DNA from: Cantharellus purpuraceus
Lineage: Eukaryota > Basidiomycota > Agaricomycetes > Cantharellales > Hydnaceae
Direction: 5' to 3'
NCBI GenBank assembly: GCA_025174535.1
Contig: JALBUN010000006.1
Coordinates: forward strand, 1,364,001 to 1,428,000
DNA: 64,000 bases
In this document: piece after piece, positions 35,676 to 64,000 of the stretch
How positions within the stretch are numbered: position 1 is the first letter of the stretch
Layout: each line of letters starts with the position of its first letter
Translations under genes and position numbers: made by a program
The notes under the pieces: generated by a model
What the model saw: the letters and a program-made list of their open reading frames with translations, nothing else
Told to the model about the DNA's origin: nothing
Database searches by the model: none

Positions 35676-37500
35676 ATGTCTCCCAAGACCCGACGCTCGC
35701 CTTCCTCTTCTGGATCTGTTTCCCTTCCACCAATACTTCATAATATACCCAAAGTTTCCGCGGACCAAGCCATCGCTGGCATTCAACAGTTCGGCAAACA
35801 GTTGATGTTGAATCGGGTTTGTAATCGCTCTTTCATTGGACCCAGTGCTTGTCTAACAGACATTATAGTGCCAATTGAAGCGTCTTATAGCAGTTAGTCA
35901 GAACGCGTATGATAGCTCAGCTTGCAACGAGAAAGTTCAGAGGTAAGCGGTCTTCTGTAAAGGCCTTCATGAGTGATGGAATGAACGGAATGTATCCTGC
36001 GGTTCGAGACTTCTCGCTAGAGTGTACACGCGCGGTCGAACATGGCGTTCAGCCGGTCCCCTGGAGAGCTTGGTCTTGCTCCCCGATGAAATGAAAACGT
36101 TTGAGACGGAGCTGAGTCAGTTTGGCACACCGCAGGTTCGTGCAGTCTCCTGGTACCTATAGCCTATTCCTTACTTTCGATCAGTCATTTACACCCAGTC
36201 CGCAGGACGAGAGGTCCGAGAAAGCCGCTATAACTTCGGCTTTCGAGCGAATTCTCGCAAATGAACAAACTCGGTCACGGGCAATGACTCTCAGAGGTCG
36301 TCCCGCAGAATTGTTCGTTTCATACCTGCAGACGGTTTGTGTCTTCCTCCTTTCCCGTCACATAACATTTAACCCACAATCACAGGCATTAGACCTGTCC
36401 CCCGAAATGAACTCTAAGGTTCGGGAGGAATGGATCAAAGCGTTGCGAAAGTTGGCTGTCGAGGCAGAAGTATTACCTTCAGATTTAAAGATTGAAGAGG
36501 TTACTCTTATCGGCACCGACCCTGTGGCAAGTGGAGGATATTCTGATGTGTATCAAGGCAAATGGAAAGATAAGTTAGTCGCTGTGAAGCGACCACGTTA
36601 CTTTACTGCCAAAGACAATTCGGAAGTTTCCAAGGTTAGAGTAGCTGACTTATTGGACAACCAAACTGACATGATCCTTCTTTAGCAAGTACGACGCGAG
36701 ATATTGCCATGGCGTCAACTCTCTCGCAACTATGTCCTACCACTCCTGGGTATATTCAATAAAGAACGTCCATTGGATGATCTGATCTCGGAGTGGATGC
36801 CGAATGGGACTCTTAGCACCTTCCTTGAGAAGAATCCGAATAGAAACCGGCTACAATTGATTTAGAGTGCAACCTTTACTCGTGCTGCACAGGTATTCTA
36901 ACACAGTGGATGTAGCTTTGCCAGGTTGCCTCAGCTCTGAAATACCTTCATAATCATTCACCACCTATTGCGCACGGCGACATAAAAGCGGTGAGCTTTT
37001 ATGTCATCCATAAGGTTCTCTCTTTGATATTTTAAGAGGAACATATTTGTCAATTCTTCTGAATGTCCGGTAATTGGCGACTTCGGCCACTCTTGCCTAC
37101 GCTATACCATTGATAGGACTCTGTCTTCTACACTGGAGGGCGGATCAACAAGGTGGATGGCACCGGAGCTTCTTCTTTCCAATTCCAATGGTGATTATGC
37201 CAGTGTGATCCCTACCCTTGAAAGTGATATGTGGTCCTTCGGGATGCTCGTGCTCGAAGCATTGACAGGGGATATGCCATATGCAAACATGCCTGACCTA
37301 GCCGTATTCTTTTGTCTCAAACAAAAGCAGAAGTTACCTGCACGGATGAGTTCACATATCACTGAACGTGGTTTGACAGATGATATCTGGAGGCTCCTAA
37401 ATAGGTGCTGGAATTTTACGTACCCGAAAGAAAGGCCCTCGGCGACTGATTTACTGGAGCGACTCAAAACATTGTCACGAGACATACAAATAACTGCAGA
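35676..37500 (+). pseudogene. TKL-like protein kinase, interrupted by a nonsense codon
   Basis: Starts MSPKTRRSPSSSGSVSLPP. A helical N-terminal region over several exons leads to EEWIKALRKLAVEAEVLP, then the kinase domain: GTDPVASGGYSDVYQGKW (glycine loop), LVAVKRP (VAVK Lys), the hinge region ISEWMPNGTLSTFLE, a TAG at 36863-36865 in LQLI-stop-SATF, ALKYLHNHSPPIAHGDIK (catalytic loop; HGD for HRD, intron inside it, then RNIFVN), GDFGHSC (DFG), TRWMAPELLL, DMWSFGMLVLEALTGDMPY and RCWNFTYPKERPSATDLLERL. Catalytic residues are present, so only the TAG (CAG-like position) inactivates it, unless an unseen intron removes it. Such kinases are expanded in Agaricomycetes. KH-coding sequence follows at once. 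Confidence 0.75.
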
Positions 37501-39408: not shown

Positions 39409-39540
39409 TAAAAATTGCATGACAGGACTTTCAATGGATGCAGTGGAAAAAGTGATAAAAGGCACCATTGCACTGATAGAGGCAGAATTAGATGATATTT
39501 AGTTTTACTAAGACAGTAAATTTGCCACTAATTTTAATCA
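39409..39540. other. Short spacer
   Basis: No feature recognised; A/T-rich. Confidence 0.3.
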
Positions 39541-40445
39541 GTCATACAGCTCCTTGTGGAGCTGTTTGGACAAGTCTGTGTCCATATGATCATATGGCTC
39601 TGGGGGGGAAGGGATGGCTCTCAGTCATCCCTGACATCATCATAGCATCCTCATCCAATTAGATGGATGAGGAAGAGACAATTGCTAAGGCAGTATCTTG
39701 ATCAAGGTCATGATTTAGTTTATCATGACCCAACCACTCTGCTAGAGAGTGTTTAGCAGCTTCCCAAGCTGTGCAAGAGGCTCCTAGAGTCTCTCATTTT
39801 TGCTTACCAACCCTGGTGGGTTGGTTAAATGAATCTCCAGAGGCAATGCAACTTGCAAATACCTCTAGGAGGGCAGTGTGAATGGGGGTGATGCCTCCCA
39901 TTCATCCAAGCCAGAGTGCAAGCTTCAGTTTGGTGTGCCCTTTGGGGGAACAATCCCCTGAATCATATGCTCCCATTATGGAAGTGTGGAAAGAATCACC
40001 AATAGTTGGTGAGAACTTATGGCCACTGTTTAGGGATTCCCAGTGGCTGGTCATCTGAAACAAAGCCCAGAGGTTCTTCTTGAATGCAGAAGAACCTTTT
40101 TTAGGAGTGGCCTTTTTGAGCCACATCCAAATATCTGACTTCTGCTCTACCAGCACATTCACTGGTGCATTCTCAGCCAAGACCATTGTTCATGGAGGGT
40201 GTGGTGTGGCCAAAGAGGATGACATGGTGGAGGTGGAGAGGGAAGAAGTGGAGGTGGATCCAGAAGCAGAGGCAGAGGCAGAGGCAGATGTGGAGCTTGG
40301 AGCAGATGTGGAGCCCAACCCACACTCAAGCCGTTATGGGGAAATGGCCTGGGTGGAGGCAGTTGAAGATCATAGGTGGGCAGAGCTGTATGCTGCTATG
40401 ATGAAGAAGAACCGCAAGGTCATGGTCTTCTTCTTGAAGACATGT
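39541..40445. repeat. Hairpin-saturated tract 1
   Basis: Perfect inverted repeats follow one another with small loops. Examples: CAGCTCC/GGAGCTG at 39547-39564; the 16 bp palindrome CCATATGATCATATGG at 39582-39597; CCTCATCCA/TGGATGAGG at 39649-39672; GGTCATGAT/ATCATGACC at 39706-39730; ACCAACCC/GGGTTGGT at 39806-39825; GCCACTG/CAGTGGC at 40022-40047; AGGTTCTTCT/AGAAGAACCT at 40071-40097. A plus frame at 40080-40440 encodes an acidic low-complexity peptide; a minus frame 39902-40186 has no recognised domain. The origin is not identified, possibly the same gypsy relic as 43.4-44.6 kb. Confidence 0.75.
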
Positions 40446-42364
40446 CTGAGTGATCACTTTTCCATTCCTAAATATCAGCATATAAAAAATGGTGCTTATG
40501 CTGAAATGGACTTATTCAAATATTCTCTATTTTTCCCTATTTTTCTGGGGATTTTCCATGCAGAACTTTGCCCAGAATGTGCTGATTCTGCTATGCTACT
40601 GTTGTGGACCCACTGATGCCCACAAACCTTCACACAGTCAGCACTCCACCTCTGAACCAGGCATTTGGCCTAAATTCAAGCTCAGATGTCTCTGATCAAT
40701 AAATATTCTCTAACTTAACAACCACAGCCTCTCAGGGCACAAATTTCCATGGAGATTATGAGCTGAGATGTGGCTATGCATGGCTGTGCAAACCAGTGTA
40801 AAAACAGGGTGGATATCCTCTTTTTTGCCTGATCAGTGCCTAGTCCAGTCATCAGAGCAGGTGACTGGTTGGAATTGTTTTGGAACCCGCAATATTATGG
40901 TGTTAGGGCAAACTCTAAATCACCACAATTCCATGAATAAACAGCTGAGAAGAATATCAAATCCTACTGCAGCACAACTCCAGAAACGATTTAATGTTTG
41001 TACTTTGGTTACAATCCCTTGTAATGGTCAATGCAGATGATACGCAGGAAGGTAATACGTTTCTTAGCAGTAGGGAATGAATAAGACTTCCAGAGTCTAG
41101 AGTTCACGGACGCTTAGGGGTCCAGATATTCCAAAAAGAGGGGAATGCACTTAGAGGCTAGAGGAAGTAGGTGGATGAATCCAACCGTCCAACCAGTGAC
41201 ACTCTGAAGCGGGTAACAGCGATGTGTGAAGTAGTCTAGCAACTGCTTCACACAAGTTCAAGCTTCTAATGCTCTGCAAAGGCAGTACACACTAGTTACT
41301 TAAACAAGAGCACTAATGGCAGGACTATTGACAGACAATCTCACCCTGTAGATTTGTAGTCACGCGAGGTAGATACTACACTCACGCCCAAAGCAGGACA
41401 ATCACTACTTCGAGTGCAATTGAATACAACTGTAAGCGACCCTTGAACTGGACAATCAACAGTTACTGAGATATAGAGGATGACACTGTATGTCACTCTA
41501 GTCACACTGATGTGCAAATGATGGGGTAGAAATGGTTATTTATTTCAGAGGCAGAATGGGCTCCTTTTATATTGTATTTACAGGAGCTGACTAATACTAC
41601 TGGAAACTTCTACCTATTAATAGATGGAAACTACTGGAAGCTAGTGGAATATGTGAGAAGGGAGTGGAAGTTTCCTAGCCAATGAGCTGCTTGGATTTGC
41701 TCTGACTCATGGCATGAGTCATGGATGGAGTCATAGTGTGACTCAGAGCAGGAGTCATAGTATGAGTAATCACAGGAGTCATTGCATGAGTCACCATTAC
41801 TCAAATAACTCGGTCAATACTTCGTTTCCCAGGCTGATTAGCACAGCTATGGGTAGGCACAGCTTCTATTGAACTCTCCACCGAAAATGGAGTCAGGAGG
41901 TGCAGTGGTGGCAAAGATATTGAGCATTTACTGGCAGTGGTGACCAGATTGAGTCGGAGATTGAAATGAGTCATGTGATTGAAAATGAGTCAGTTGTCCA
42001 GGTGACTCCGGCTGACTTTGGGGCTGCTGACATCTGCGAAGGTTTGTGGGTCCATGTGGGTCCCAAAACTTCGCCCAGCAGAACAATAAGTTTGTAGACT
42101 CATTTCTGCATGGAAAATTCCCGAAAAAATATGAAAAAATAGAGAATATTTGGCCCTGAATCAAGAGAAAGCAGCAGATATATACTGATATTTTAAGGCC
42201 ATCAAGCAGAATTGTACAGTTTCGGGACTTTAAACAAGATCTTTTAAGGGAAAACCAGTTCCCATACAGGAATCTTCTACCCCTTTCTTCTACCTTCCAC
42301 TAATTCCCAGTAGTTTTCCTCTATTATTAGATAGAACATTCCAGAACCATTATTCAGCCCCCTG
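40446..42364 (-). mobile_element. Family B long LTR, minus strand, split by an A-type LTR
   Basis: Pieces 40446-40875 and 42274-42364 are the reverse complement of family B LTR sequence (compare 27.67-28.24 kb). Both termini are missing. It hosts the insertion at 40876-42268. Confidence 0.75.
40876..42268 (+). mobile_element. Solo long LTR (family A), nested copy
   Basis: 1393 bp, TGTTTTGGAACC to CCCATACA, with a perfect target duplication GGAAT (40871-40875 and 42269-42273) inside the minus-strand B LTR. It includes a TGACTCA/TGAGTCA block at 41.70-41.80 kb and two TGAGTCA sites near 41.97-41.99 kb. Confidence 0.9.
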
Positions 42365-43437
42365 TGTTTTGGAACCCGCAAAATTATGGTGTTAGGGCAA
42401 ACTCTAAATCAACAATTCCATGAATGAACAGCTGAGAAGAATATCAAATCCTGCTGCAGCACAACTCCAGAAACAATTTAACATTTGTACTTTGGTTACA
42501 ATCCTTTGTATTGGTCAATGCAGACTATATGCAGAAAAGTAATACATTTCTTAGCAGCAAGAAATGAATAAGACTTCCAGAGTCTAGAGTTCACTGACAC
42601 TTAGGGGTCCAGATATTCCAAAAAGAGGGGAATGCACTTAGAGGCTAAAGGAAGTAGGTGGATGAATCCAACCAACCAGTGGTACTCAGAAGTGGGTAAC
42701 AGCGATGTGTGAAGTAGTCTAGCAACTGCTTCACACGAGTTCAAGATTCTAATGCTCTGCAAAGGCAGTACACACTAGTTACTTAAACAAGAGCACTAAT
42801 GGCAGGACTATTGACAGACAATCTCACCCTGTAAATTTGTAGTCACACGAGGTAGATACTATGCTCACACCCAAAGCAGGAATATCACTACTTTGAGTGC
42901 AATCAAGTACAGTTACACAACTGTAAAAGATCCTTGAACTGGTAATCACCTGATCTGATCATCAATCACCTGCTCTGATCCCTGAACTAGGCACTGATCA
43001 GGCAAAAGGGAAGGTGTCCACCCTGTTTTCTGCACTGGTTTGCACAGCCATGGATAGCCACATCTCAGGTGATGATCTCCATGGAAAATAGTGCACTGAG
43101 AGGCTGTGGTGGTCAAGTTAGAGAATATTGATTGATCAGAGACATCTGAGCTTGAATTCAGGCCAAATGCCTGGTCCAAAGGGGGAGAGCTGGCTGTGTG
43201 AAGGTTTGTGGGCACCTATGGGTCCACAACTGTAGTACAGCAGAAATAAATCATTCTGGGCTGAGTTCTGCATGGAATATTCCTGAAAAAATATGGAAAA
43301 ATAGAGAATATTTGAATAAGTCCATTCCAGGTCAAATATATGCTGATATTTAGGAATGGAAAAGTGAAATAGAGCACATTGGTGCTGCATAAATAGGATT
43401 TGATAGGGAAAAGGTGGTTCCTATACAGTAAAGTTGA
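42365..43437 (+). mobile_element. Long LTR, A-type start and B-type end
   Basis: Begins TGTTTTGGAACCCGC and ends CTATACA. It switches from A to B sequence near 42940, as in 25433-28248. No target duplication (CCCTG versus GTAAA), consistent with recombination between insertions. Confidence 0.75.
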
Positions 43438-44610
43438 AATGGGATAAGAACTCCCACCACCTAATCTGTCTGGGAGACAGGTTCTTTTGGGTCTTGAAGT
43501 ATTTGAGACCCTTGTGGTCAGTTACTAGGTTGAACTTTTGTCCTAGTAGCTTATCTTCCCATTTCATTAGGGCTTTGAGCACAGCTATAGTCTTGTGCTC
43601 ATGAGTCTTATAGTGCTGTTATGCAGCACTAAATTTTTTGGATAGAAATCTGGCAAACCAACAGGTCTGCCAATCTTTTCCTTGCTGATAGATGGCTCTG
43701 ACTCCAGTCTTGGAGCTGTCAGTAATAACCCAAATAGTATTGGGGTTATTGACATCAATGGGTTTCAATATTGTAGCCCTACATGCTAGGAGCTTAATGC
43801 TTTTGAAGCATTTCTCCAGCAATGGCATCCATAAGAATGGGAGGTTATTATGAGCACAACCCAATAAAGGGGTTGTGTATGCAGTTATATCTGGCATATA
43901 GTGTGCCAGATACTGCACTAGTCCAAGGAAACATTGGACTTCATGGTACAACCTAGGTCATCTCCACTCTCATATTCACTGCATTTTGTCAGCATTTGCA
44001 TGCACACCTTGGTCATCTATTAGGTGACCAAGGCAATCCATACTTGTTGAGTATAGATCAATCTTATCCTTGCTCAGGAACATGTGCTTTCCTGAGCTCA
44101 GTGAACACCATCTCTAGGTGGTGTTCGTGCTCTCATATAGTATGAGAGTACACAATGTCATCCAGATATACATGGATGATCTTGGAAGATGGTGGTCATG
44201 AGCTGTGAAATGTCAAGGGGGAATTACAGTCCCCTTGCTGCATGACTTGACTGATGAATGTCCCCAAGATGGTTGCAAATGCCATCTTGGGTATATCTGT
44301 TGGCCTGATGCGTATCTGTATGCCTCAGACATATCAAGTTTAGATTGATATGTACAGCAGGCAACATTGTGTCTGATGTTGTCCTGATCAGGGAGGGGTG
44401 TTATGTCCTTCACCGTATTGTCATTCTGTTCATGCAAGTCAAACACAGTGCAGAGCTTCCCATTTTTCTTGGGAATGCATAGCATTGGTATGGTGTATCG
44501 CAGAACTTTCTCTGAAGTTCTGCACTTAGGCAAGTGATAATGTATTTGCTTGTCAGGATCCATGAGATTCATCTCATGGTTAACTTCCCTAAATGGGGGA
44601 AGTTCTAAGA
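43438..44610 (-). pseudogene. Ty3/gypsy reverse transcriptase-RNase H remnant, hairpin-saturated
   Basis: Read on the minus strand, conceptual pieces in order are KKNGKLCTVFDLHEQN, VKDITPLPDQDNIR, QSKLDMSEAY, then YLDD-type sequence (YVYLDDIV-like at about 44170), LSKDKIDLYS, CLGHLIDDQGV, VQCFLGLVQYLAHYMPDITA, PIDVNNPNTIWVITD, FLSKKFSAA, LMKWEDKLLGQKFNLVTDHKGL and LSPRQIRWWEFLSHFNF. These are gypsy RT and RNase H landmarks with several frameshifts. It ends where an LTR abuts. The whole stretch is built of short perfect inverted repeats (see finding), which is not a property of the family. Confidence 0.85.
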
Positions 44611-44766: not shown

Positions 44767-45870
44767 TCTATAATACAAAAGGCCTAGGTGGGTTGTGGGC
44801 ACACACTTATGTCAGCTTATCTAATCTGTGCCAGCCTCCCGTTCACCTGCTGTCCAGTCATGTGACACGTCGCGTGAGGTTGCTGAGTGCGTGCTTGCAA
44901 AAATCAAAATTTTCATTTGCTTTCTACCCCGGACCTCCACCAGCTCGCTGTCCACAATCTGTTCTCTACTAGCTCTTGCTGTCTTTTGCTGTCTGCTAGC
45001 TCTTGCTCCCTATTGCTGCTGTCTGTCACTGTCTACTAGCTTCTTGCTCCCTGTTGGTGTACTCTTGCTCTCTGTTGGTGTACTCTTGCTCTCTGTTGCT
45101 GTCTACTAGCTCTTGCTGTGGGTTGCTGTCTACAATCTGACGCTGCCCGGTATATTTTAACTTGATACTAGCTTTTGTCATCTGTCGCTGTCTGCAATCT
45201 GATGCTGTCCAGTTTATTTGACTGCTATAACTAGCTAGCCATCACCCAGCACTCGTGTCCGCGCGCGCACTCGGGCCCCCTCCAGCCCACAGTTGCGTCC
45301 GCACTCGCACTCAGGCCCCCTCTAGCTCGCACTCACGTCCGCATCCATACTCACGCCTCCTCCAGCCCAAACTCACGTCCACACCCGCACTGACGCCCCC
45401 TCCAGCCCTCACTCGCGTTCGCACTGCACCTGCACTTGCGCCCCCTCCAGCCTATACTCACATCTGCACTCGCACTTGTGCCCATCCAGCCCACAGTTGC
45501 ATCCACACTCGCACTCATGCCCCCTCTAGCTCGCACTTGTGCCCGCACCCGCATTCACGCCCCTTCTAGCCTGTACTCGCGCCCCCTCCAGCCCAAACTT
45601 GCATCCGCACCTGCACTGACGCCTCCTACAGCCCTCACTCGCACTCACATCCGCACCCGCACTTGCGCTGCCTCCAGCCCACACTCGCATTCAACTTGCA
45701 TCCGCACCCCCTGCGCCGCCTCCAGCCCGCACTTGCATCCACATTCGCACTGATGCCCCCTCCAGCCCACACTCACGTTCACGCCACACCCGCACTCGCG
45801 CCCCCTCCAGTCCTCACTCGTGTCCGCACTCGCACCCCACACTCGTGCCCCCTGGCCATAGGTACTCTAT
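44767..45870 (+). mobile_element. Non-autonomous Helitron, 5' part only (copy A)
   Basis: Starts TCTATAATACAAAAGGCC right after an A, as Helitron 5' ends insert between A and T. Then a subterminal block shared with copies B and C (CGTGAGGTTGCTGAGTGC, AAAATTTTCATTTGC), a CT-rich block with repeated TCTTGCTGTC-like units, and the CpG-rich minisatellite. It has no 3' hairpin or CTAG end: it stops at about 45870, before the TG...CA element. Confidence 0.7.
45240..45850 (+). repeat. CpG-rich minisatellite of Helitron copy A
   Basis: Imperfect tandem units around 39 bp (GCGCCCCCTCCAGCCCACAC-type plus CACTCGCGTCCGCACC-type), with 30-39 bp variants. Reverse-complement equivalent of the arrays in copies B and C. 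Open in several frames because unit lengths are multiples of three; not a gene. Confidence 0.85.
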
Positions 45871-45897: not shown

Positions 45898-47313
45898 TGA
45901 CGAGCCAGGACGCATCGGGGACGCATATCGAACCACTCTGACAGTCCAACTCCGCCAGCGTCTTTTCGTATCAACTTTTAAATAGCGCTGCAACTCCCTA
46001 TCCACCTCAGTCTCTAATTCGAGCCATCGATTGTCACTCGTGTTTCATCGCCATCGATCATTATCAGCCTTCTATTCACACCGATCCTTTCATCATCATT
46101 CACATGGCTTCCCATTCTATTCCCCTCTCCAACATCACTTCTAATAATACGTCACACTGGTCTCTGGACACAGAGGACTATCAAAAATACGCCGAGCTCC
46201 ATGGGCATGTTAAGCCACCTCCACGTGTCAAAATACTTCCAAAACTCTTTCAACGTCCAAGATCCCCACCATGTCTCTCTTATGCCATTGGCGATCCCAT
46301 ATTCTTTCACAATTCCGTTGAACCATATACATTCCTCGACATTTCACCTCTATATTGTAACACAGATAGAAGAGTCGAATGTGAGGTAGAATTTCAGTCG
46401 CCATCGCTGACCTATCCTCCCACTTCAATCCGACTCAGGTTACATCGTGTCAGGCAAAGGGACTGAATACTCTTGGAACGGGATACCATATGGAGACGGA
46501 TCACTAAGACAATAAGGAGTATTTGTTGTGGATGCTGACTGAAGTCCTCATGTGACTCAGGGTCAATTAACCTTCGGAGCCGTAGGGAAGATGGTATTGG
46601 TGGACGTTTCTATTGTTCTTTTATATGACTCACCCCTGTTTCATCTTTTAATTCATTCATACATGACTTACTCATCCTTGTTCTATTTTTGGTTCTTTTA
46701 TTACTCATCACCCCCTATTCTTACAAAGATTACCCCTATCTGTCGTTTCATTTCTCCATGATTTCCCCCTTTAGTAGTTCAACTTCACACGCTTCGTCAG
46801 CTGGCTTGATCAGCATTTCTTGCATCATATTGCATCATTTGCTCCTCATATTGTGTCGTTGTCCCCTGGGGATTTGTATATAAAAGGGCGCTAGTTTTCG
46901 CCTTTGGAATCAATCAACAAGTTTTCAGCCAACGCTCTAAAGTCAAAGTCCAAGCTCTAAGTCTACGCTCTACACTCTACATCACAATCCATCATCTCTA
47001 CACTGAGGTAAAACACCTTGGTTCAACGATCAGATTTCCCTCCGCCACCGAGAGGTTGCTTCTCCTGAAACCAGCTTTCGCATACCTCCCAACCGGGCTC
47101 TGCATTGTCATCCAGTCACAGAGCACGATCAGCCATCAGGACCGACCTTTAGCTCCCATCCCCATCCAACCACAGAGCACTATCCCACTTCCCTGTTACT
47201 TACCCCTCGCCCTGATTGATCTTTGGAGTGCTGAACAACTGCGTTACACACCGTCTGTTTGCTAGGACCGTTGCGCGCAGGCTTATAGGATCTATTCCTT
47301 GAGCGAACCGACA
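45898..47313 (+). mobile_element. 1.42 kb TG...CA element, copy 2
   Basis: Matches 16176-17594 end to end (TGACGAGCC to GAACCGACA). The ORF at 46104-46466 is longer than in copy 1. A TATA (GTATATAAAAGGGCG) lies near 46870. CpG dinucleotides are better preserved than in copy 1. No clear target duplication; flanks are GCGA and GCGT. It lies between the two oppositely oriented Helitron 5' ends. Confidence 0.65.
46104..46466 (+). CDS. Small element-borne ORF, longer copy
   Basis: 120 residues, same protein as 16382-16711 with 11 extra C-terminal residues (RLRLHRVRQRD) because CGA is not mutated to TGA. WSLDTEDYQKY and AIGDPIFFHNSVEPYTFLDIS are conserved. It shares its layout with the ORF of the gypsy element at 61427-61864. 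Function unknown. Confidence 0.5.
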   Translation: MASHSIPLSNITSNNTSHWSLDTEDYQKYAELHGHVKPPPRVKILPKLFQRPRSPPCLSYAIGDPIFFHNSVEPYTFLDISPLYCNTDRRVECEVEFQSPSLTYPPTSIRLRLHRVRQRD

Positions 47314-61970: not shown

Positions 61971-64000
61971 CTAAGCTTCACTGTGCCTATTCTGCGGCTC
62001 TGAAATGTGTCCAATACCACGTGTTGGGTTCCTGCCAGCTGTCCAATCAAAGAGGACCTGTTTGGGAGGTTCTGTGAAGTTCTCAAAGCGTCTGAAGGGA
62101 AGAGCTGCATAGGTGGCTGCTGAAATACGCTTTGGGGCTTCAGGATTTTCCCGATGGAAGTCTGCAATGCACCTTCTAGCCCCACTGGCATCCTTAGCTG
62201 GGATCCAGAGGTCATCAGCAGCTCCATAGCCCTTCCAACGCACCAGGTATTCCAGTCTTCCTCGGAAAACTCTGCTGTCAAGGATCTTCTCAACTTCGTA
62301 TTCCTGTACTCCATCTCGAATGACTGGAGGTGGTGGAGGAGATGACTGGCATTCAGGGATGGGATCCTTTTCATAAGGACAGAGTAAGACAACAGAGAAC
62401 ACTGGATGAGTGCGGCCAAAGATTGGGGGAAGTCATAGGCCATAGGCATTTCGTGAGACCACCTTATTAATCACATACAGTCCTAACCATTTGTGATCAA
62501 GTTTCTTGGTTGGACAGGTGGTGGTGATATTTTGTGCATTGAGCCAGACCTTGTCACCAGGTTTGTATACTGGGGCTGCTTGCCGATGGGCATCATAGAA
62601 TCGTGCCATATCATCTGCTGCCTTTTCCAGGGCAGAGCGAGCCTCAGTGGTGGCCGTCTCCATACGCTCAGTGAATTCTTCCAGTGCTTCAAGTCGTGTC
62701 TCTCAGATTGGCTCTAGCCCAAGCCTTGGGTGTTGGCCTGTATCAAGCATGAAGGGGGTTGATTGCGTGGAGGAGTGGATGCAGTTGTTGTATGTGAATT
62801 TGGCAAGAGCAACCCACTCAATCCAGTCATCCTGGCGCTGATTGACGAAAAGCCTCAAGTATTGTTCAATTTCTTGATTGACCCTTTCCGTCTGACCATC
62901 GGTTTGTGGATGATATGCTGTGGATGCTGCAACCTTGATCCCCAAAAGCTTATTGAGCTCGCGCATAAATTGAGAGACAAACTGGGTGCCACGGTCACTG
63001 ATGATCTCCTCAGGAAGGCCGTGGTGTTTCCACACATGGTCTCAGAAAAGTTGTGCAACTCCTATGGAGTTGATGTCAGAGGTGGTAGGGATAACATGTG
63101 CTCGTTTGGAAAGACGGTCCACAACGACAAGGAGTGCATCATAGCCGTGGCTGATGGGTAGTTCTACAATAAGGTCAACAGATATCACTTGCCACCTCCA
63201 ATCTGGGACACGATTAGGCAGGAGTTTACCCATAGGAGGAGCAGGGAAAGTTTTTGTCCGATTGCAGAGGTCACATCCCTTGACGTATTTGGCAATGTAT
63301 TGTCCAAATCCAGGCCACCAGTAGCTGCGGGATACAAGTTCTGTTGTTCTCCAGCGACCAGGGTGACCTGTAATGTGAGTATCGTGGTGTGCCCTTACAA
63401 TGTCATGGCGCAATTTTGGGTCAAGAGGGACATATACCTTGCCATGATAGAGGACGAGTCCATTCTCCTCGGTCCATTCCTGTCCTCGTAAATTCCAAGA
63501 GGGACCAAGTTCCTTAAGAGCCTTTACAACCTTTTCATCTCTGTTGGTGCAGTTCCGCACACGTTCCAGGAATATGTCTCCTTCTCCTGTGATCATTTGA
63601 GCTTCTGGCCCTGGATAGGTGGATGTCGCATCGATGTGGAATAGCTCAGGGCCAAGAAGAACCTGGTTCTGGTTATCTTCCTCCCCCCACTTATGATCTA
63701 CACGTCGTGAGAGGGCATCAGGTTTGGCTGAATGTCGTCCAGGATGGTGGATCAGTTCAAAGTCAAAACGAGAAAGGTATAGTGACCAGCGAGCTTGTGG
63801 ACGATTGAGATTCTGAGCTGTACGGAAATATGTGAGGTTTTGATGGTCGTTAAGGATTTCAATCTTGTATTTGGTCCCTTCCAAGATGTGGTGCCATTCT
63901 TCTAGTCCACGGATGACTGAGAGCAATTCCTTATCATGGATGGCATAGTTGCACTCTGCATCTGAAAGGCTCTTGGATACAAAACCTACCGGCCTCCATT
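61971..64000 (-). pseudogene. Chromodomain Ty3/gypsy pol (RNase H, integrase, chromodomain), 5' end off window
   Basis: Reading minus from the edge: PVGFVSKSLSDAECNYAIHD and DHQNLTYFRTAQNLNR (RNase H/RT end), HHPGRHSAKPDALSR, integrase H2C2 (HHDTHITGHPGRW ... CDLCNRTKTF), core Asp in ISVDLIVELP and ISDRGTQFVSQ and Glu in QTERVNQEIEQYL (DD35E), then the GPY/F-like region AAPVYKPGDKVWLNAQN, and a C-terminal chromodomain YEVEKILDSRVFRGR with YLVRWKGYG and DDLWIPAKD. Chromodomains target chromovirus integration to heterochromatin. Three in-frame TGA codons (63042-63044, about 62703, about 62433) interrupt it; all can be CGA to TGA changes. Confidence 0.92.

Follow-up and report, generated by a model that had tools for sequence, protein, structure and literature searches.

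Hairpin-rich remnants in the window

The window is a 64,000-nucleotide stretch of the Cantharellus purpuraceus genome. Its minus strand carries, at positions 43438-44610, a decayed reverse transcriptase (RT)-RNase H fragment of a Ty3/gypsy family that is tiled with hairpins. The assignment comes from matches elsewhere in the genome and from the minus-strand reading, in which the resemblance to gypsy RT-RNase H noted in the first-pass annotation was recognised by eye. The domains are confirmed on a sibling copy, L031, while a single-frame Pfam search of the relic itself, in which stops were written as X, returned no match.

The full hairpin array, to which no strand is assigned, extends from 43466 to 44604 and is supported by stem counts and a shuffle control. 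It holds 24 perfect stems of at least 6 bp with loops of at most 12 nt; within 43438-44610, 19 of these are at least 7 bp long, 14 at least 8 bp and 7 at least 9 bp. An exact stem check of the 13 arm pairs listed in the first-pass annotation found every one perfect and at its given coordinates. Six are 8-bp stems, at 43611-43631 (loop 5), 43724-43750 (loop 11), 43855-43877 (loop 7), 44103-44126 (loop 8), 44130-44148 (loop 3) and 44582-44604 (loop 7). Another six are 9-bp stems, at 43888-43912 (loop 7), 44007-44033 (loop 9), 44072-44097 (loop 8), 44329-44353 (loop 7), 44500-44523 (loop 6) and 44560-44579 (loop 2), and the 10-bp stem lies at 44263-44291 (loop 9). Dinucleotide-preserving shuffles of 43438-44610 (n = 300) have on average 4.0, 1.2 and 0.28 stems of at least 6, 7 and 8 bp, with maxima of 10, 4 and 2, against the observed 24, 19 and 14. 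The description of the relic as built almost entirely of hairpins is overstated, because the arms of stems of at least 7 bp make up 26% of it.

Elsewhere in the window stems of at least 7 bp number 0-3 per kb, apart from 9 in the 39-kb bin, 8 in the 43-kb bin and 11 in the 44-kb bin. The hairpin feature is also present outside 43438-44610. A second remnant on the minus strand, at 39531-40140, has 10 stems of at least 7 bp at 39546-40097 and corresponds to the end of ORF4, one of two extra reading frames of the element described below. It was placed by its stem count, by 41 matches within the genome, where 40 of the 217 candidates were scored, and by its position in two other copies: in L034 the sequence adjoins ORF3, and in L037 it overlaps ORF4. 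RT-RNase H and this piece of the ORF4 end are all that the window copy retains.

Several other features were observed in the window. Between the two hairpin-rich remnants, 40454-43367 looks like a small LTR-type element, with direct 577-bp repeats (40876-41451 and 42365-42942, 91% identical) flanked by inverted 0.4-kb repeats (40454-40867 and 42963-43367, 85%). A C-rich degenerate tandem array with copies about 68-74% alike lies at 45237-45853. The reading frame at 45957-46421 belongs to a different repeated family, found in several 10-kb loci, and its surroundings show no hairpin enrichment. The edge of another gypsy element is present at 63864-64000, with an RNase H match in a 529-codon open frame (C6:1427864-1428148). 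A single 11-bp perfect stem with a loop of 5 occurs at 36979-37005, outside the hairpin-tiled element.

The element family

The genome comprises 40.15 Mb in 50 contigs, and positions 43438-44610 have 46 matches in it, 40 of the 168 candidates having been scored. In L031, Pfam identifies Ty3_capsid (8.5e-8), zf-CCHC (1e-4), RVT_1 (5.7e-15), RT_RNaseH (3.4e-25) and Integrase_H2C2 (1.4e-8), and rve is found below its cut-off (3.4e-4). The domain order is gag, RT, RNase H, integrase. The relic at 43438-44610 belongs to a dead copy of a Ty3/gypsy LTR retrotransposon that has undergone CpG decay.

Pieced together from different copies, the element comprises a 269-bp LTR followed by gag, RT-RNase H and integrase, then two additional ORFs and a second LTR, and two copies suggest a length of about 9.3 kb. 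The 269-bp sequence is located 5' of gag in L033 and, 93.7% identical, 3' of ORF4 beside L034. It is treated as the putative LTR, its two occurrences coming from separate copies. A first screen of the genome gives 434 candidates for LTRs and leaders of the family. ORF3 (L034:7935-8834, plus strand, 300 open codons) and ORF4 (L037:809-1495, minus strand, 229 open codons) lie between integrase and the 3' LTR, on the same strand of the element. Neither matches a Pfam family above its cut-off. ORF3 has no homologue at E 1e-3, and ORF4 has four relatives that are 54-60% identical across 41-80% of its length. ORF3 is found 143 times in the genome, with 131 of 298 candidates scored. Inspection by eye shows at least six of these occurrences to follow an RNase H locus of the same strand at a distance of about 2-3 kb downstream. 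DNA of relatives was found neither in viral_contigs (two scans) nor in genome_contigs (one scan).

Hairpins are present throughout the LTR, leader, gag, RT, RNase H, ORF3 and ORF4 at about 14 per kb, and the integrase piece that was tested has few perfect ones. Ten 10-kb loci show about three stems per 250 bp within the element and few outside it. The LTR is tiled as well, and stems of 9, 11 and 12 bp are found in the leader, which its position suggests is non-coding. Tiling of both the LTR and the leader means that translation does not cause the hairpins.

Age and decay of the hairpins

All 27 sibling RT-RNase H copies that were retrieved hold 12-22 stems of at least 7 bp, and when the copies are aligned the set of stems is largely identical. 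The hairpins are therefore older than the copies. An assembly or basecalling artefact is judged very unlikely from these sequences, because many separate, divergent copies show the hairpins. Among 244 informative columns between copies, 163 are CG, TG or CA sites, which is the mark of CpG decay in inactive copies. A process acting at the locus of the relic, or on the relic after its insertion, is therefore not supported: the siblings inherited the stems, the circumstance that the first-pass annotation itself named as refuting a process and making them ancestral, and present change is mostly CpG decay. Its proposal that something has perfected local palindromes survives for the once active element, whose coding sequence is otherwise ordinary and whose palindromes go far beyond what chance and codon choice provide, and fails for the relic itself.

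Stem history was followed at the ORF4 end in 21 copies (20 of 40 scored, and the window copy). Fourteen of these form one cluster and seven fall outside it; distances reach 0.19 when CG, TG and CA sites are set aside. Eleven centres of stems of at least 6 bp are common to both groups, five occur only in the cluster and five only in the others, which indicates that the element, while still evolving, acquired or lost stems. Stem sites diverge by 6-10%, compared with 17.5% under random placement (at most 2 of 1000 placements are as low), and 2-4 double changes are seen in these comparisons. Four pairwise comparisons elsewhere, read in both directions and at two thresholds, give lower divergence in stems in all 16 readings, and at most 5% of placements are equally low in 12 of them. 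Most stems are old and have been kept, and some have been gained or lost. Overall covariation is no higher than in controls (41 covarying pairs versus 40, 38 and 45), so covariation was rejected as sole proof of pairing.

Hairpins within coding sequence

The frame of the window relic is broken, and the codon-shuffle control was applied to five naturally open sibling frames with 300 shuffles each. Stems of at least 8 bp exceed the synonymous shuffles in four of the five: 5 versus a mean of 0.16 in gag, 6 versus 0.29 in RNase H, 10 versus 0.27 in ORF3 and 5 versus 0.24 in ORF4. The integrase piece is unexceptional (1 versus 0.20). Together with the dinucleotide shuffles these results rule out chance and codon usage.

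An open sibling RNase H frame was compared with 23 relatives out of 120 listed (441 found), Trametes sanguinea being among the relatives listed. The frame is 42-65% identical to the 23 and aligns with them without hairpin-sized insertions, and inserted palindromic repeats were on this ground rejected as the source of the hairpins in RNase H. Agreement with the modal residue of the relatives is 70% for 60 codons in arms, 61% for 185 codons outside and 58% for 12 codons in loops. Among 37 stems classified by codon phase, 20 pair 1-1/2-3, 12 pair 1-3/2-2 and 5 pair 1-2/3-3 (hand-calculated chi-square about 9, P about 0.01), and the rarest class is the one in which synonymous change helps least. 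These data suggest that the stems arose under protein constraint, and hence in an element that was then active.

Geometry of the stems

Stem geometry was examined in 9176 bp from two oriented copies (L033 3500-9485 and L034 1-3190). This sample contains 129 perfect stems of at least 7 bp with loops of at most 12 nt, and only 13 with loops of 13-24 nt. Their arms are reverse complements without internal mismatch, as template switching expects. The number of stems falls sharply between spans of 26 and 27 nt, from 55 stems spanning 23-26 nt to 11 spanning 27-30 nt. The longest usual loop declines with stem length, from about 14 nt at 6 bp to 8 nt at 9 bp, which indicates that the limit acts on total width near 26 nt. 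Stems of 10-11 bp, which reach spans of 27-31 nt, are the exception. There are hardly any one-mismatch stems with 4+4 pairs (5 observed versus 2.7 per shuffle), overlaps between stems are rare (4 and 4 versus 22.6 and 16.7 under random placement), and direct repeats show no excess comparable to that of hairpins.

Pairing and folding on the two strands

An alignment of 28 copies with 20 stems contains 161 majority Watson-Crick pairs and three internal mismatches, one of which is a sense G-U. Single mismatches within stems comprise 30 sense G-U, 43 A-C and 48 other in the ten loci, the corresponding numbers for the 28 copies being 11, 11 and 27; these counts cover stems of all ages, many of the mismatches perhaps post-dating insertion, and the majority test on 28 copies is cleaner but small. 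The mismatch counts show no sense-strand tolerance of G-U as a sign of selection on RNA.

The folding z-score of the sense strand per 200 nt averages -3.55 to -4.89 in five coding pieces and -1.06 to 0.02 in five control retroelement loci. The integrase piece reaches -4.05 despite its few perfect stems. Sense and antisense z-scores do not differ (mean difference 0.20, P 0.89, 21 folding windows), and in RT-RNase H the antisense strand is the more stable of the two in raw folding energy, with a margin of 8.07 kcal/mol per 200 nt (166 folding windows). Watson-Crick purity and similar z-scores on both strands argue for a strand-symmetric, Watson-Crick cause.

Other retroelements in the genome

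Thirty other RVT_1 loci were used for comparison; by DNA, 29 of them are one family, and L067 is a relative at 68-69%. They have 0.6-2.6 stems per kb, with shuffle means of 0.35-0.98. Loci L069 and L070 of a further gypsy family, locus L071 and the copia-type locus L072 have 2, 1, 1 and 6 stems, respectively, in 2.5-3.5 kb. As far as examined, with few other families compared, hairpin tiling belongs to one gypsy family. This restriction points to something that the element itself brings.

Origin of the hairpins

The best reading of these observations, to which we give slightly less than an even chance, is an element-specific and strand-symmetric process filtered by the encoded proteins, probably fold-back template switching during reverse transcription. 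The active lineage's own replication would repeatedly have used the growing strand as its own template for a few nucleotides, by fold-back, intrastrand switching at imperfect palindromes, so that near-palindromes up to about 26-31 nt wide became perfect ones. Events that spoiled a protein would have been purged and those permitted by synonymous codons would have accumulated. CpG decay would later have struck the copies and would now be eroding the stems. On this account the hairpins need not serve any use. Template switching has been established as creating and fixing perfect stems (PMC8794818) and as homogenising short inverted repeats in yeast genes (PMC8604942).

We count in favour of template switching the excess over shuffles, the restriction to one family, the tiling of LTR and leader, the Watson-Crick purity, the similar folding of sense and antisense strands and a width limit without long loops. 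The distribution of phase classes, arm residues that are no less conserved than others, subfamily-specific stems and the occurrence of a few double changes are counted on the same side. Against it, no single event is seen with ancestor and product polarised, the double changes are few, overall covariation stays at the level of controls, and the width limit near 26 nt is without a derived cause. The intrastrand model, as presented in PMC8794818, leads one to expect an excess of G-C over C-G and of U-A over A-U, and the stem pairs show the opposite asymmetry (C-G 265, G-C 218, A-T 297, T-A 276). Loop inversions, as in the interstrand model, are absent from ORF4 (0 inverted versus 918 same-orientation loop pairs) and number 20 versus 3110 in RT-RNase H, where the five shown are one near-palindromic loop. 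The link to reverse transcription is suggested by a single line of evidence, the family restriction, which comes from few independent families. That the agent was an undescribed, element-specific copying error of the RT or its replication complex, reaching across about 26 nt, which steadily rewrote the element's own genome into tandem perfect hairpins and was limited only by the encoded proteins, is put forward tentatively, as something that may well be wrong.

The main rival is selection, which we consider a serious possibility, although on balance less likely than not. It holds that hairpins were built and are kept because the element benefits from tightly folded transcripts of one or both strands, or from a folded single-stranded cDNA, for instance through evasion of small-RNA silencing, in a way comparable to the ordered RNA structure found across genomes of RNA viruses. 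Such selection could account for the strong sense folding relative to the control loci, for the low divergence of stem sites, for the rarity of overlaps, and for the few double changes (at most four per comparison) that preserve pairing. Copying of the pairing, with coding sequence in both arms, would likewise lead one to expect the low divergence. The absence of sense-strand G-U use is difficult for selection on a transcript, as is the antisense strand, which folds equally well by z-score and better in raw energy for RT-RNase H. The sharp cut-off in loop and width is also more than folding energy alone demands.

Less probable, and in our view unlikely, is a process of host DNA, such as hairpin mismatch repair, template switching in replication or conversion in silent chromatin, of which this family would merely be the main target. 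The strand symmetry is compatible with such a process, and in the ten 10-kb loci the copies are located in repeat-rich stretches among other elements. However, hairpins are lacking in other gypsy families, which stop codons often break up to the same degree. In addition, the stems are common by descent and the differences between copies are mostly CpG decay, so no such process is visible after insertion. Finally, explanations by chance, composition bias or codon usage, by palindromic repeats that were inserted, or by an artefact of sequencing would suffice for the integrase piece only and are highly implausible for the element, given both kinds of shuffle, the alignment of RNase H without hairpin-sized insertions and the hairpins in all 27 siblings.

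Relation to known systems

The element resembles fungal Ty3/gypsy elements (Metaviridae) in its order of gag, RT, RNase H and integrase, its LTR-like ends and its ordinary RNase H, and differs from them in being tiled with perfect hairpins and in carrying ORF3 and ORF4 after integrase. RNA viruses can have genome-scale ordered RNA structure, with folding energy well below that of shuffles along coding stretches. The coding folding energy of the present element is likewise below that of shuffles, whereas its stems are short, near-pure Watson-Crick, strand-symmetric and present in the LTR too. Rickettsia palindromic elements are one repeat family inserted into genes as extra residues. They share with the present element the presence of palindromes within coding sequence, but the RNase H described here has no hairpin-sized insertions.

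Quasi-palindrome template-switch mutations, as described in PMC8794818 and PMC8604942, also have perfect reverse-complement arms close to one another and homogenised arms in coding DNA. Those are scattered single events, whereas here about 14 stems per kb are found in one family with a width limit of about 26 nt. For the genomic RNA of yeast Ty3, PMC11381356 considers six palindromes near the 5' end, one of which is needed for dimerisation in vitro. Ty3 RNA therefore offers a parallel in its short palindromes, and the present element differs in being tiled throughout. In the literature searched, which lay largely outside subscription journals, no description of such a hairpin-tiled element was found. 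What would be new here is the extent of template switching and its restriction to one element family.

A coding retroelement with more than 100 perfect short hairpins, in a genome where the other retroelement groups examined lack them, is a natural experiment. If a mutational drive is responsible, structure has been written into a genome without selection, which bears on the origin of RNA stems and of microRNA precursors. If selection is responsible, the element provides a strong example of a transposon camouflaged by structure. Drive and camouflage differ in what they predict for G-U use, the width limit, new stems and the non-coding parts. If the fold-back reading is true, intramolecular template switching would have shaped this retroelement genome over almost its entire length.
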